Part shown: one piece after another, positions 19,676 to 24,102 of the stretch
Position numbering within the stretch: position 1 is the stretch's first letter
Layout: each line of letters starts with the position of its first letter
Assembly: GCA_040219515.1 (NCBI GenBank)
Contig: JAVJSI010000016.1
Location: 187,390 to 251,389 of the forward strand
Direction: 5' to 3'
DNA length: 64,000 nucleotides
Origin: Acidimicrobiales bacterium
GTDB lineage: Bacteria; Actinomycetota; Acidimicrobiia; Acidimicrobiales; Aldehydirespiratoraceae
Made by a program: the position numbers and the translations under genes
Notes under the pieces: model-generated
Told to the model about the DNA's origin: nothing
The model's database searches: none
What the model saw: only the letters and a program-made list of their open reading frames with translations

Positions 19676-20272
19676 CTATGTGAGCGCAGCGTGCCAGTCC
19701 CAGGCGTCGGGGTCGTCGATGTCGTTCCAGCTGTCGGTTTGGGTGGTCGCCCATTGGGCCCAGTCGGCGATCATGTGGTTGTAGTCGAGCTGGAACCGGA
19801 TGGCGATGGCGTTGATGTGGCGGCGTTCGGCGAACGGGTAGTCGGGGTCGTCGGCCGCGGCGATGAGCGCTCGGAGTTCGTCCAGATTCGTTTGGGCGGT
19901 AGTGGCGAGGTCGTCGATTGTGGCTTGGAGCTGGTCGAAGGTGCCGGCGTCGGCAAAGAAGACCCGTACGAGGGCTTCGGCTTCGAGCTTGGGCGGTGCT
20001 GAGTCCTGGTCGAGCCAGCCCTGGAGCGTGCGGCGGCCTTTGGCGGTGATCGTGTAGACGGTCCGAGGCCGGGACCCGGTCGTTTCGGCAGTGGCGGTTG
20101 CGTCGCCGCTTTCGACGAGTTTCTTGGCTTCGTCATAGATCTTGCGTTCGGTGCGGGGCCAGAACCATCCGAGGCTGCGGTCGACCTGTTTGGCGAGCTC
20201 GTAGGTGCTCCAAGGCTGGATGCTGAGCAGGCCGAGGAGGGCTTGGGCTGTGGTGGTGAGCGGTTTCGCCAT
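19676..20272 (-). CDS. PadR family transcriptional regulator
   Basis: 198 aa. Winged-helix N terminus (AKPLTTTAQALLGLLSIQPW, STYELAKQV, then FWPRTERKIYDEAKKLVESG with the recognition helix and RTVYTITAKGRRTLQGWL as the wing) followed by a C-terminal dimerisation part of about 100 residues, the PadR/Vir_act_alpha_C layout. An upstream in-frame ATG at 20296 exists but falls inside the operator palindrome, so the ATG at 20272 is preferred. It is divergent from the PIG-L gene, and two identical palindromes lie between them, which suggests it represses itself and that gene. Confidence 0.88.
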   Translation of the reverse strand: MAKPLTTTAQALLGLLSIQPWSTYELAKQVDRSLGWFWPRTERKIYDEAKKLVESGDATATAETTGSRPRTVYTITAKGRRTLQGWLDQDSAPPKLEAEALVRVFFADAGTFDQLQATIDDLATTAQTNLDELRALIAAADDPDYPFAERRHINAIAIRFQLDYNHMIADWAQWATTQTDSWNDIDDPDAWDWHAALT

Positions 20273-20281
20273 GTGAGAAGC

Positions 20282-20341
20282 TTGACATACTGCCAATGGC
20301 AGTGTCTACTGATTCTCAACTTCGATACTGCCAATGGCAGT
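20282..20341 (+). promoter_or_regulatory. Divergent promoter with two identical PadR operator palindromes
   Basis: ACTGCCAATGGCAGT is a perfect palindrome present at 20289-20303 and again at 20327-20341, 38 bp apart. A rightward promoter TTGACA (20282-20287), 17-bp spacer, TCTACT (20305-20310) wraps the first copy, which fills the spacer; the second copy lies just downstream of the expected start site. This is a classic repression layout. Binding by the adjacent PadR protein is inference. Confidence 0.75.
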
Positions 20342-20368
20342 AATCGACGCATCAAGGGGGGAGTTGTC

Positions 20369-21160
20369 ATGAGTGAGATGTCGGACCGATTGCTGGTGGT
20401 GGTTGCCCACCCCGATGACGAGACATTCGGTTGCGGGTCACTGCTGGCCCACGCACACGCGTCAGGGGTCCCAACGGTTGTTGCGTGCGCGACGAGGGGC
20501 GAGGCAGGTTCGCCAACTCCTGGTCGGGGTCTTGATGACGCCGACATGGCCGAGGTACGGGAGTCCGAGTTGCGTGAAGCGGCCGAACTGGTCGGCGTCG
20601 AGCGGGTCGAGTTGTTCGACTGGGTCGATTCGGGCATGGAGGGTGAACCGACTCCTGGAAGCCTTGTCGCGGCGCCAGTCGCCGATGTGGCATCAGCGAT
20701 CGCCTCGCTGATCGATGAGGTGCGTCCAACAGTGGTGGTGACACTCGATGCCAGCGACGGTCACCGCGATCACGCACACATCCGCGACGCAACGCTCCGC
20801 GCCGTGGAGGTCAGCTCGTGGCGTCCATCAGGAGTCTACTTGCACTGCCTGCCTCAACAGCTCATGCGGAAGTGGGTGGAAGCCCTCGTTCGTGAACAAC
20901 CCGACAGTGAGCACCTCGGTCTGGGAGACCTCGGCACCCCCGAAGACAAGATCACCACAGTTATTGACACCACCGATTTCCTCGAGCTGCGCGAGCAAGC
21001 AATCGCCGTGCACCGCTCTCAGACCTCGCCCTATGAAGTGATGCCTTCCGACCTGCGCCGCGAGTTTCTGACCGCCGAACGGCTCCAGCGGGTCCACCCC
21101 GACTGGGACGGAGGTCCGGTCGAGACAGACATCTTCGCCACAGCCGATGCGTCGTGTTGA
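20369..21160 (+). CDS. PIG-L/LmbE family deacetylase
   Basis: 263 aa. Zinc-dependent N-acetyl deacetylase fold. The metal site VVAHPDDETFGCGS starts at residue 11, with His14, Asp16 and Asp17; the third ligand is likely in DGHRDHAHIRD. Family members deacetylate N-acetylglucosaminyl conjugates (for example MshB in mycothiol synthesis or Mca), but the substrate here is not known. The ATG at 20369 follows AAGGGGGGAG, a strong ribosome site. Expression is probably set by the PadR operators upstream. A broken MBL-fold gene follows. Confidence 0.9.
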   Translation: MSEMSDRLLVVVAHPDDETFGCGSLLAHAHASGVPTVVACATRGEAGSPTPGRGLDDADMAEVRESELREAAELVGVERVELFDWVDSGMEGEPTPGSLVAAPVADVASAIASLIDEVRPTVVVTLDASDGHRDHAHIRDATLRAVEVSSWRPSGVYLHCLPQQLMRKWVEALVREQPDSEHLGLGDLGTPEDKITTVIDTTDFLELREQAIAVHRSQTSPYEVMPSDLRREFLTAERLQRVHPDWDGGPVETDIFATADASC

Positions 21161-21219: not shown

Positions 21220-21520
21220 ATGAAGCAAGCGCAGCCCGCCCTGCCCCGTCACGAACCCCTCCGCATCGCCGATGACACCTGGGTCATCCAGGCCACTCTC
21301 GGCGAAGGCGAAGCCCCCCCTCGTGGTCCATCTCAACTCGATGGTGATCACCGGCGCTGAACCCGTCGTGGTCGACACCGGCGCCCCCATCCACCGAGAC
21401 CAGTACCTAGAAGACTTGTTCGGTATCGTCGATCCCGAAGATGTCCGCTGGGTGTTCATCTCCCATGACGACAGCGACCACCACGGCAACCTCCACGAGG
21501 TCATGGACGCCTGCCCGTAA
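21220..21520 (+). pseudogene. MBL-fold metallohydrolase, frameshifted and truncated
   Basis: The start at 21220 (after AAGGAG) gives a metallo-beta-lactamase/flavoprotein-like N terminus, ADDTWVIQATLGEGEAP. The frame then breaks in a run of seven C at 21314-21320; removing one C restores VVHLNSMVITGAEPVVVDTG, HRDQYLEDLFGIVDPEDVRW and VFISHDDSDHHGNLHEVMDA, which carries the HxDxDH-like metal motif in altered form. A TAA at 21518 ends it after roughly 100 residues, less than half the normal length. It therefore lacks the rest of the metal ligands and is broken at two levels. Confidence 0.75.
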
Positions 21521-21553
21521 TTGGGGAACGTTCCGAACGCTTCGGTGGACCCG

Positions 21554-21724
21554 TTGGTCCACTCCATGAGGAGATTCGTTGTCTGCCCACCCAACGACGC
21601 CCGATCATCGGTTGTCACCCTCAGCCGTGCCGGACGGCGAGTGCTCGGCGCGGCGCAGGGATCGTTCGGCGACGAACTGACAGCCCGGCTCACCTCGTTT
21701 GCGGCACTCGTGCGCGACCTGCGG
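21554..21724 (+). pseudogene. MarR family regulator, C-terminal fragment
   Basis: About 57 residues resembling the wing and C-terminal helix of MarR regulators: VCPPNDARSSVVTLSRAGRR, then VLGAAQGSFGDELTARLTSF. The DNA-recognition helix that should precede it is missing and the fragment runs in frame into an alcohol dehydrogenase piece. Not a functional gene. Confidence 0.6.
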
Positions 21725-22107
21725 CAACAGATCAAGGTCGAAGCATTCGGCCTCAACCAGTCCGAGCGCCACACCTGGCTCGGCCTCGCTGACGGTGTCA
21801 CCTTTCCCCGCTTGCTCGGCATCGAAGCACCAGGCGTTGTTGTCGACTGTCCCAGCGGCGACCTCGCATCCGGCGCACAGGTTGCCGCGTTGATGTGCGG
21901 CCTGGGCCGCACCTTCGACGGCGGGTATCGCCTATGGAGGAGACGCCAGCGATCTCCCGCCTGACGTGCTGCAGGAGTTCCTCGACGCAGTTGCGGCCGA
22001 TGAGGTTCAGGTGCCGATCCACCAGACCTACCGCCTCCGCCAGATCGCGGAGGCCCACGCCGACATGGAAGCCGGTCAGGCCACGGGACAGCTCGTCGGA
22101 GTCAGGA
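21725..22107 (+). pseudogene. Zinc-type alcohol dehydrogenase/quinone oxidoreductase, two joined fragments
   Basis: 21731-21931 encodes an N-terminal piece (KVEAFGLNQSERHTWLGLAD, FPRLLGIEAPGVV, GLGRTFDGGY). In another frame, about 21963-22105 encodes the natural C terminus (LQEFLDAVAADEVQVPIHQT, YRLRQIAEAHADMEAGQATG). The whole Rossmann domain between them is deleted. The end meets the convergent DinB-like gene. Clearly a decayed MDR gene. Confidence 0.72.
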
Positions 22108-22692
22108 GGTCATGCCGCCGAGGCCGACCAGACCGCGAGCGAGCTCGATCTCACCCATGTGCCGCATGCCGTGCTGGTACCACCAGCACTCGATGGCGTC
22201 GAGCACGGTGACGCCGTTCTCACCCGCAACGCGTGCGCTGAAGGTGTCGGCGACCACCGGCGGGAACGGTCGGGGTACGACGAGTCGGTCGAGCTCGGCG
22301 CGCTCGAGTCCGTCGAGCCACGCTTCGGTGCGCTGGTACACGGCGCGCATGTAGTCCTTGAACGCGTCGTAGTCGCCGACGCGCTGGTGGATCATCTCGT
22401 CGACGGTGCGTTCCTTGCCGTGGTCGTTGATGGCCATCTGGACTTTCGACTGCCGCTCGTTGTTCCAGATGGGCGGCTCGCTGGTGAGCACGGTGAAGGT
22501 GACGTCCTGCATGTTGGGGTAGTGGAAGAGCGAGAAGGCGATGGGCAGCACGCCTTCGCGTTCGAAGTGGTTCACGTGCTCGGGGCCCATGGTGTCGACG
22601 GCGTCGTACCAGAGAGTGTGCATGGCGGCCATTCGTCGCCTGAGGGAGTCGAGTAGAAGATCGTCGGTCATGGTTGTGTCGCTTTCTGTCAT
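22102..22692 (-). CDS. DinB-like four-helix protein
   Basis: 196 aa. DinB_2/YfiT-type fold inferred from the helical pattern and histidines positioned as in metal-binding family members, ending YQHGMRHMGEIELARGLVGL, a common DinB_2 C terminus. Related proteins are metal-dependent thiol transferases (bacillithiol or mycothiol) or have unknown function. The start at 22692 overlaps the stop of the 41-codon mini-gene by 4 bp (ATGA), which favours it over the internal ATG at 22671. Third gene of the selenoprotein operon; a thiol link would fit with a Sec-containing partner but is inference. Confidence 0.75.
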   Translation of the reverse strand: MTESDTTMTDDLLLDSLRRRMAAMHTLWYDAVDTMGPEHVNHFEREGVLPIAFSLFHYPNMQDVTFTVLTSEPPIWNNERQSKVQMAINDHGKERTVDEMIHQRVGDYDAFKDYMRAVYQRTEAWLDGLERAELDRLVVPRPFPPVVADTFSARVAGENGVTVLDAIECWWYQHGMRHMGEIELARGLVGLGGMTS

Positions 22693-22814
22693 CGGAGTGC
22701 GGGGAGAACTTCATCGGCGAGGCGGTGCAGGTAGTCCGAGGGTTCGAGGTCGGGATCGTGCCAAGCGGCTCGCCCACCGAGCGGCTCTCGAACGATCGTT
22801 CCTGGTTCAGGCAT
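22689..22814 (-). CDS. 41-residue mini-protein between selenoprotein and DinB genes
   Basis: A short open frame reading MPEPGTIVREPLGGRAAWHD, then PDLEPSDYLHRLADEVLPALR. Its ATG lies 5' of the selenoprotein stop (8-bp overlap) and its TGA overlaps the DinB start (ATGA), so it is wedged between two coupled genes with no spare bases. Codons are GC-rich at third positions. I recognise no family; it could be a small partner or a remnant of a larger gene. Support is positional, from the two overlaps, not from homology. Confidence 0.5.
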   Translation of the reverse strand: MPEPGTIVREPLGGRAAWHDPDLEPSDYLHRLADEVLPALR

Positions 22815-24012
22815 CGGGGGCTCCGTTTGGAAGGGGTCGGACGAGGAGGTCCCAGTGGTCTCGGGGCACTAGTCCGCGATGACCGAGAGTGCGGACCGTC
22901 GGGTCGGGGTGATCGAGCAGGCGGCGCGCGACCCGCCCGATCAGGCGTGCGAGGGCGGTGTCCCGCCAGAACCAGGTGTTGCGGTCGTGGCTCGTGGCCC
23001 GGCCCGGTTGCTGGGCGGCGGCGTGGAGGTACCACGTGTGGGCATCGTCGGCGGCGAGTCGTAGGTCTTGAACGGCAACGTCGTGGCCCCTGGCGGCGGC
23101 GGCGAGCAGATCGACGATCTCGCCAAGTGACCGGCCGCTGTTCGGCGTCGGCGGCAGCGAGAGCTCAGCCCACGGCGCGAGCTGCCCCAGCTCTTGTCGC
23201 GTCGCCTCCACCGCGTCGGTCTGATCGTGGCCGCTCGCCACGAACGAGACCGGGCAGGACCAGGCGGTGGCGTCGTCGGCGGTCCTCGGTGCGTCGTCGG
23301 GGAAGTCCTCGAGAACAACAGGTCCATCGTTTCGCTCGAGCAGTGTGAGCGCCGCCTCGAGCACGCGCCGTTGGAAGTCGGCTTCGTGCGGGGCGCCGAA
23401 GGGTCGGCCGAGCTCGAAGGGGACCCACAGGAACCTCGGCAGGCGCATCGCCTCGGTCTGTTCGCGAACGAGCGATATGCCGGTCGTCGCGATGCCGGCG
23501 GATTCGAGGTGATGGGCGACCGCGCCGACCGCGCGGGTGCAGTTCGGTCAAACGGGAACGAGACAGACGGCGGTGACGCCGTCGGCCTTCAGCATGCGGG
23601 CCAGCTGCTCGCACGTCGAGCCGATCATCGCAGGGGGCCAGCCCGCTCCCATCAATGAATAGTGGCGGTCGGCCACGGAGGCGATGACACCGTCGGCGGC
23701 GAGCTCCCGGAGCCGTTCCAGCGGAAACACGGTGTTGACGTCCTCGCGAAAGGCGCTGCGGTCGAAGCGGACCGATGAGTGGGTCATCGTCAGCGACCCC
23801 AGGTCAGCGTCCCCGCGAATCACGCGATAGCTGAGGTCGACGAAGGAGAAGGCGTCGTCATCGGTGCGGTGGAGACCCGCCGTGGTCACGAGGGCCACGC
23901 GGCGCCCGGTGACTGGTGGGCCGAGTACGAATGGCGTCGAGTCGTACCTCGGGAGCTCCTTCGCCATGATGTGCTCGCGTTCTGCGTCGCTCAAGTCCCG
24001 GAGTCGCACCAT
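22807..24012 (-). CDS. Selenoprotein B-type (GrdB/PrdB-like) reductase with in-frame UGA (Sec155)
   Basis: 401 aa if UGA at 23550-23548 is read as selenocysteine. Before it the frame encodes VALVTTAGLHRTDDDAFSFV, then GSLTMTHSSVRFDRSAFRED and MIGSTCEQLARMLKADGVTA, typical of the glycine/sarcosine/betaine reductase selenoprotein B family. The site reads CLVPV-U-PNCTRAVGAVAH, a Sec-x-x-Cys redox motif. After it the same frame stays open for 247 codons through RLPRFLWVPFELGRPFGAPH. The ATG at 24012 (MVRLRDLSDAEREHI) is preferred to a GTG at 24030. GrdB proteins reduce C-N bonds with electrons from thiols; the substrate here is unknown. Without recoding only a 154-aa stub would be made. Confidence 0.82.
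23520..23550 (-). promoter_or_regulatory. UGA codon with bacterial SECIS-like hairpin
   Basis: On the minus strand the UGA (23550-23548) is followed by 11 bases and then CCGCGC-GGTCG-GCGCGG (23536-23520), a perfect 6-bp stem with a 5-base loop beginning GG. The loop G lies about 17 bases after the UGA, within the spacing described for bacterial SECIS elements that bind SelB. The stem is also coding sequence. Confidence 0.72.
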
Positions 24013-24102
24013 TGGTCCAGCGTGACCCACACGTCAGCTCGTGTCCATGTGCGAGCGCATCATGTGGATACGACTCCGTCTCACCGCACCACCATCGCCG
24101 GG

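Follow-up and report, generated by a model that had tools for sequence, protein, structure and literature searches.

The minus-strand gene at 22807-24012 of the window (the whole stretch of 64,000 nucleotides of Acidimicrobiales DNA analysed here) is, judged from its sequence and those of its relatives, almost certainly an intact, full-length selenoprotein gene in which the UGA at 23550-23548 is decoded as selenocysteine (Sec), because the genome carries the Sec machinery, relatives have TGA at the same column and a conserved hairpin follows the codon. The best explanation overall, a full-length Sec protein that consists of a PrdB-like core and a helical C-terminal domain and acts partner-free, is very probably correct. 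The features concerned are the following.

22807..24012, minus strand: selenoprotein gene, 401 aa, Sec as residue 155; Pfam GRDB E 9.9e-9; NCBIfam PrdB E 1.2e-28, below the cut-off
23548..23550, minus strand: in-frame UGA codon, read as Sec (U155 of VPVUPNCT); TGA at this column in 78/80 and 58/61 homologous loci
23539..23541, minus strand: codon of Cys158, the likely resolving partner in U-x-x-C; invariant in 41/41
23520..23536, minus strand: bSECIS-type hairpin; covariation against a codon-preserving null
23254..23256, minus strand: codon of Cys253, another invariant Cys (41/41), located where the C-terminal domain starts
22810..23262, minus strand: C-terminal all-helical domain, no Pfam family; AlphaFold2 pLDDT 90.2
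22689..22814, minus strand: truncated TauD-type dioxygenase remnant (the "mini-gene"); first 32 aa 62.5% identical to those of the L111 gene, E 1.7e-6
22102..22692, minus strand: DinB-superfamily protein, 196 aa, overlapping the stop of the remnant; Pfam DinB_2 E 3.1e-5, 24.9 bits against 24.8

The frame has start codons at 24030 (GTG) and 24012 (ATG) and ends at 22807. Translation confirmed the sequence-only reading of two minus-strand segments that share one frame and are split only by the TGA: read through from 24012, the product has 401 residues and VPV-U-PNCT occupies residues 152-159, in the context CLVPV-U-PNCTRAVGAV. A usable start codon lies 150-160 residues before the motif in 37 of 40 relatives, the start having been chosen near that value.

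Domain architecture and candidate chemistry

The protein combines a PrdB-like core (residues about 34-227) with a helical C-terminal domain. In the AlphaFold2 model, which has a pLDDT of 89.6 as a whole, strand 148-152 is followed by helix 156-171. Cys158 and Cys253 are invariant in all 41 aligned members of the family, and S80, D84, D91, N93, R100, D144 and R193 are the invariant polar residues. For the C-terminal 150 residues, Pfam gave nothing in the protein of the window, and the matches of single relatives were weak and discordant (best E 0.01). No solved structure matched the protein by sequence. Foldseek searches of the PDB, with the whole model (best E 0.036) and with the C-terminal domain alone (best E 4.0), returned nothing at E <= 0.001, and the viral library was equally free of matches at that threshold. 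With VIA-align, the highest Z was 8.4 for residues 32-243 (a LacI-type regulator, 140 residues at 3.5 A) and 4.4 for the C-terminal domain; neither likeness was taken as a functional clue, the match of residues 32-243 being to a common alpha/beta arrangement.

Our best guess is that the protein is a partner-free Sec oxidoreductase. On comparative evidence, the UGA is decoded through the hairpin that spans 11-27 nt past it, together with the SelA, SelB, SelD and tRNA-Sec of the genome. Sec155, at the start of the helix that follows the strand, would be the nucleophile towards the substrate; Cys158 would then resolve the resulting selenide-sulfide intermediate, and Cys253 or an external thiol would re-reduce the enzyme, whose role would be that of a partner-free reductase or thiol oxidoreductase. 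For the chemistry assigned here to Sec155, Cys158 and Cys253, the chances of being right and of being wrong appear about equal.

It is unlikely that the Sec/Cys pair, instead of taking part in small-substrate catalysis, acts in redox or electrophile sensing or in a chaperone-like role. In two homologues, from genomes with no SelA match, the Sec column is occupied by Ala, so the fold can persist without the redox residue, and the family has no general operon, which would both suit such a role; the invariant polar residues, however, fit an enzyme pocket, and the nearest characterised relatives are enzyme subunits. Because of the two Ala homologues, some lineages may use the protein in a role that does not need Sec. 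Both of them (L085 and L086, in genomes G194 and G158 of one genus, 64% and 80% complete) keep Cys158, and the protein has perhaps outlived the loss of Sec decoding there. In a short-type homologue (L099), UPLD replaces UPxC, so that Sec is kept and the resolving Cys is lost.

Family placement and partner proteins

By model score the protein is nearer to PrdB than to GrdB, and it is neither of these proper. It exceeds the gathering cut-off of Pfam GRDB (PF07355; 35.4 bits against 22), whereas with the NCBIfam models, among which PrdB (TIGR04483) comes first and is followed by GrdF, GrdH, the general subfamily and GrdB, it stays below both the PrdB equivalog cut-off (100.1 bits against 300) and that of the glycine reductase selenoprotein B subfamily (TIGR01918; 44.1 bits against 65.45). 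The description as "GrdB-like" misses the greater nearness to PrdB. The term itself reportedly appears in work on fluoroacetate use by Synergistota. The same five NCBIfam models match all 41 aligned members; since none of the five reaches its cut-off here, annotation pipelines may truncate the gene.

The Sec column is shared with the GrdB, GrdF and GrdH proteins (PF07355, TIGR01917/01918, NF040794/5), as seen in four GrdB-type proteins of a SAR202 genome (L190-L193, G761) that align their own UGA at residue 155; the equivalent of Cys158 is present in three of these and is Ser in the fourth. Unlike GrdB, our protein lacks the second Cys of UxxCxxC, and with the GrdB models it matches in the second half only. 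With PrdB it shares the U-x-x-C motif (that of PrdB as given in the accessible part of PMC9312934) and an alignment of residues 34-227 to positions 27-220 of the 238 in TIGR04483; the C-terminal domain of some 150 aa is an addition.

The second kind of difference concerns the partners, and the negatives given here hold within the sensitivity of the searches. The genome of the window (4.02 Mb, 99.98% complete, 4.96% contamination) contains no match to the GrdE family PF09338, which we take to cover PrdA as well as GrdE, and neither do 21 of the other 22 genomes with the long form. The one positive genome, from SAR202, gave eight matches and served as the positive control, which an earlier PF09338 search had not had. 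GrdA was likewise not found in the genome of the window, and one of seven genomes, the same SAR202 genome, was positive. The PrdA model (TIGR04480) had no match in the genome of the window, and its sole match among the 11 genomes searched was far below the cut-off. It is highly probable that the protein works partner-free.

These data also bear on the idea that the host is unusual and the protein itself an ordinary, canonical subunit of D-proline or glycine/sarcosine/betaine reductase. The closest curated models are indeed PrdB and GrdF/GrdH/GrdB, the Sec column is common to GrdB-type proteins, and the long form and GrdE-type genes do occur together in one of the 23 genomes; the low model scores, the failure to find GrdE-family and GrdA genes in the genome, the extra domain with its own invariant Cys and the absent second Cys of UxxCxxC nevertheless make a canonical subunit very unlikely, and we retain the partner-free reading. 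In the SAR202 genome the long form (L148) is found together with GrdE and GrdA genes, so a link to those partners is possible there. Genome G761 has a large glycine-reductase-type repertoire: besides GrdA and the eight GrdE-family matches, it encodes four or more GrdB-type UGA proteins. The genome of the window itself has a second UGA-containing PrdB-like gene (L077, at C5:135387-136139), of another subfamily and with the motif UPLCTRTV.

The in-frame UGA and its distribution

The sequence-only reading had taken the UGA for a Sec codon, and the search for selA, selB, selD and tRNA-Sec that it called for found all four in the genome of the window. The tRNA-Sec is located at C18:131974-132065 (64 bits; ARAGORN: tRNA-SeC, anticodon tca), selA (393 bits) and selB (276 bits) adjoin at C18:155490-157726, and selD (362 bits) lies at C16:95480-96403, on the same contig as the window; its product is of the Sec type, with its own in-frame TGA in HGAGUGCK. 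Since the models of tRNA-Sec, selB and selD gave low-scoring matches in all 14 control genomes, only matches over the cut-off were counted, as all of these are. Among genomes of the same class, 124 of 395 match the protein at E <= 1e-10, and SelA (E <= 1e-40) is present in 110 of these 124 against 149 of the 271 without a homologue (Fisher p 7e-12, uncorrected for kinship). The 14 genomes with a homologue but no SelA match include both Ala genomes (G158 and G194), and ten of the other 12 are below 90% complete, the remaining two being G234 (90%) and G292 (96%).

Two sets of homologues were read at the Sec column. In the class, 61 loci were read, the window included (best rows, a selection of lower ones and all three stop-free rows), and these comprise 58 TGA, two Ala (L085, L086) and one Cys (L106). 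The second set comes from a scan of a named collection, in which a broad profile of all subfamilies (A1) gave no usable stretch and the narrower profile A2 was used instead: at least 595 stretches matched, and at least 330 of them code for a relative. Retaining the best 80 biases these loci to near relatives. In the best 80 of these at least 330 relatives, 78 have TGA and two have Cys (L154, Limnohabitans; L176, Halieaceae); the record names include Acidimicrobiia, Acidobacteriota/Thermoanaerobaculia, Alpha-, Beta- and Gammaproteobacteria, Desulfobacteraceae/Geobacteraceae, Chloroflexi/SAR202 and others. TGA is thus found in 136 of the 141 homologous loci read. The proposed alignment of relatives therefore places Sec in this column, as in the GrdB-type proteins, and the claim that many aerobic relatives use Cys is not borne out by two Cys among the 80 collection loci and one, with two Ala, among the 61 class loci. 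Contrary points are the 110 Cys against 235 Sec homologues given in the accessible text of the GOS survey (PMC2398784), and one genome (G418) without TGA inside the match, from a wider draw in which 11 of 396 genomes of the phylum match at E <= 1e-40.

In a FastTree tree of 138 sequences, the gene of the window groups with L111, L110 and L114 (records named Ilumatobacter, Acidimicrobiia and Actinomycetota), and this group then joins three Acidobacteria loci (support 0.995). The enclosing clade of 85 sequences (support 0.992) contains all 80 collection loci, which had been selected for their resemblance to the A2 profile with the window first, and just four other class loci; L077 falls outside. 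The clade spans Acidimicrobiia, Acidobacteriota, Proteobacteria, Desulfobacteria and Chloroflexi, Sec being nearly fixed among the loci read, and gene transfer between phyla appears likely from the tree.

The hairpin that follows the UGA consists of the stem CCGCGC (23536-23531) and GCGCGG (23525-23520) with the loop GGTCG (GGUCG in RNA, 23530-23526), and begins 11 nt after the codon. The 6-bp stem and GG-starting loop at bSECIS spacing described earlier are therefore present, and it is the family that lends them weight. By itself the hairpin of the window is not unusual against codon-preserving shuffles (p = 0.18), and 40 of the 58 class TGA sequences, that of the window among them, singly fall short of p 0.05, because GC-rich codons pair easily. 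The family test was anchored at the UGA and gap-free, with 50 distinct sequences (of 58) and shuffles that keep the protein and the codon use of the gene. The stem at 11-16/22-27 nt past the UGA has 93% of its cells paired (n=50) against 55.8 +/- 2.3% in the null, a value reached in 0 of 500 shuffles; this placement ranks first of 264, and the best placement in 100 shuffled sets stays at or below 71.3%. Compensatory pairs occur at 14-24 (C-G, G-C, U-A) and at 15-23 (A-U, U-A, G-C). Six, five and four of the six stem pairs are formed in 51, 22 and 5 of the 78 TGA collection loci. Among the non-Sec homologues, those with Cys keep four (L154), one (L176) and five (L106) pairs and the Ala pair keep three each, while three pairs or fewer are found in two of the 50 distinct TGA class sequences and in none of the 78 TGA collection loci. 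The bacterial SECIS rule asks for G within the first two loop bases, and in the loop, 17-21 nt after the UGA, every loop type of the 50 class and 78 TGA collection sequences has G at base 1 or 2.

That the UGA is a real stop, in a decaying pseudogene or between two separate proteins, is in this light highly improbable. The second half does contain an internal ATG (23448), the open frame before the TGA is complete, and the TauD stub and other gene pieces nearby suggest local decay. Conservation at the protein level, however, continues across the codon: compared with L111, differences at codon positions 1/2/3 number 6/12/31 in the 100 codons before the TGA and 7/6/29 in the 94 codons after it. 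The same TGA in nearly all homologous loci, the covarying hairpin and the full Sec machinery point in the same direction. Decoding as a non-Sec residue, for example Trp or Cys by read-through, would likewise keep the frame open, and can hardly be credited given that the five replacements are Cys or Ala, never Trp, and that the UGA is linked to selA and to the hairpin.

Earlier records and gene neighbourhood

The sequence-only reading had called the selenoprotein unrecognised, which is too strong for the family, since Sec-containing PrdB-type (PF07355) proteins already stand in surveys from 2006 and 2008, going by their accessible text (PMC1794560, PMC2398784). A Sec "proline reductase" is listed for Anaeromyxobacter and Geobacter in the available part of PMC1794560. 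The GOS marine survey gives the counts cited above for PrdB/PF07355 proteins with UxxC; its "Proline reductase PrdB" selenoproteins resemble ours in Pfam family and UxxC, with Sec outnumbering Cys, and differ in that the accessible text counts them as a family, without domain layout, partner analysis or function (PMC2398784). Going by the description in that text, the GOS set very likely includes the present clade. What would be new, on the sequence comparisons, is the long, partner-free form. In the open-access literature, no description of this form or its function was found, and "PrdB-like" name variants were also absent.

Judging oxygen habits from lineage names, the clade includes usually aerobic lineages (Ilumatobacter, Reyranella, SAR116) and anaerobic ones (Desulfobacteraceae, Geobacteraceae); the homologue of Reyranella soli (L143) has UGA at the Sec column. 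Aerobic bacteria are said, in the accessible portion of PMC13188914, seldom to retain selenoproteins. Sec in nearly all loci read, across phyla with usually aerobic lineages included, in a protein that lacks the partners characteristic of its studied relatives points to an as yet undescribed Sec-dependent reaction. Tentatively, and with the balance tilting somewhat against it, we propose that the long PrdB-like clade is a separate class of partner-free Sec reductases over many phyla, in which the helical domain and Cys253 would replace the pyruvoyl subunit, which in places would work with a TauD-type dioxygenase, and which would explain the marine "proline reductase" selenoproteins. If this is true, marine surveys carry a misleading label; the name "proline reductase" should not pass to the long-form protein.

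The mini-gene and the DinB gene that had been noted beside the selenoprotein gene are present as described, but the former does not represent a separate kind of gene. Its ATG and the stop of the selenoprotein gene share the sequence ATGccTGA, the same overlap in L110 and L111 begins an intact 347-aa gene (TauD family in L111, E 1.9e-33), and its match to that gene ends after 32 residues; because of this, the mini-gene is identified by sequence as a remnant of a TauD-type dioxygenase gene, of which it retains the first 32 residues. The DinB-like protein reached 39 bits against a cut-off of 170 with the mycothiol transferase model (E 6.8e-10), and its gene is probably on the same transcript.

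TauD genes adjoin other family members on the same strand, 46 nt after the selenoprotein gene in L118, 60 nt before it in L123 and 370 nt before it in L119. TauD is the commonest neighbour family (5 of the 87 neighbours scanned, two of which, L111 and L118, were added because TauD had already been seen there); SelB-type proteins account for 3/87 and SelA for 1/87. To arrive at these 87, the 80 loci were thinned, 99 neighbours were picked from them, 14 of those were discarded, and L111 and L118 were added. A profile built from the first tblastn TauD matches re-found the same set, six of the 80 collection loci and two class loci. All eight TauD genes share the strand of the selenoprotein gene, three are more than 1.5 kb away (L124, L066, L080), and that of L124 is a piece. 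The genome of the window has 11 other TauD-family matches. A link between TauD and the selenoprotein family is suggestive, and the presence of TauD-type genes next to some members may point to the catabolism of a small polar compound. No general conserved operon was found in the 61 class loci (with a rough gene caller) or in the 80 collection loci.

Several minor observations concern the neighbourhood. In Reyranella-type loci (L143, L146, L151 and others), the selenoprotein gene is immediately preceded, on its own strand, by a gene of about 129 aa that looks DUF1330-like by eye. The plus strand of the window holds an 82-aa piece of a metallo-beta-lactamase-fold gene (21272-21520) and a frame that covers just the N-terminal portion of an alcohol dehydrogenase (21521-21964); these two pieces and the TauD remnant are possible signs of gene decay in this stretch. 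Also on the plus strand, at 20243-21160 and near the DinB/mycothiol-transferase-like gene, is a PIG-L deacetylase that resembles MshB/Mca of mycothiol metabolism, below the cut-offs of those models.
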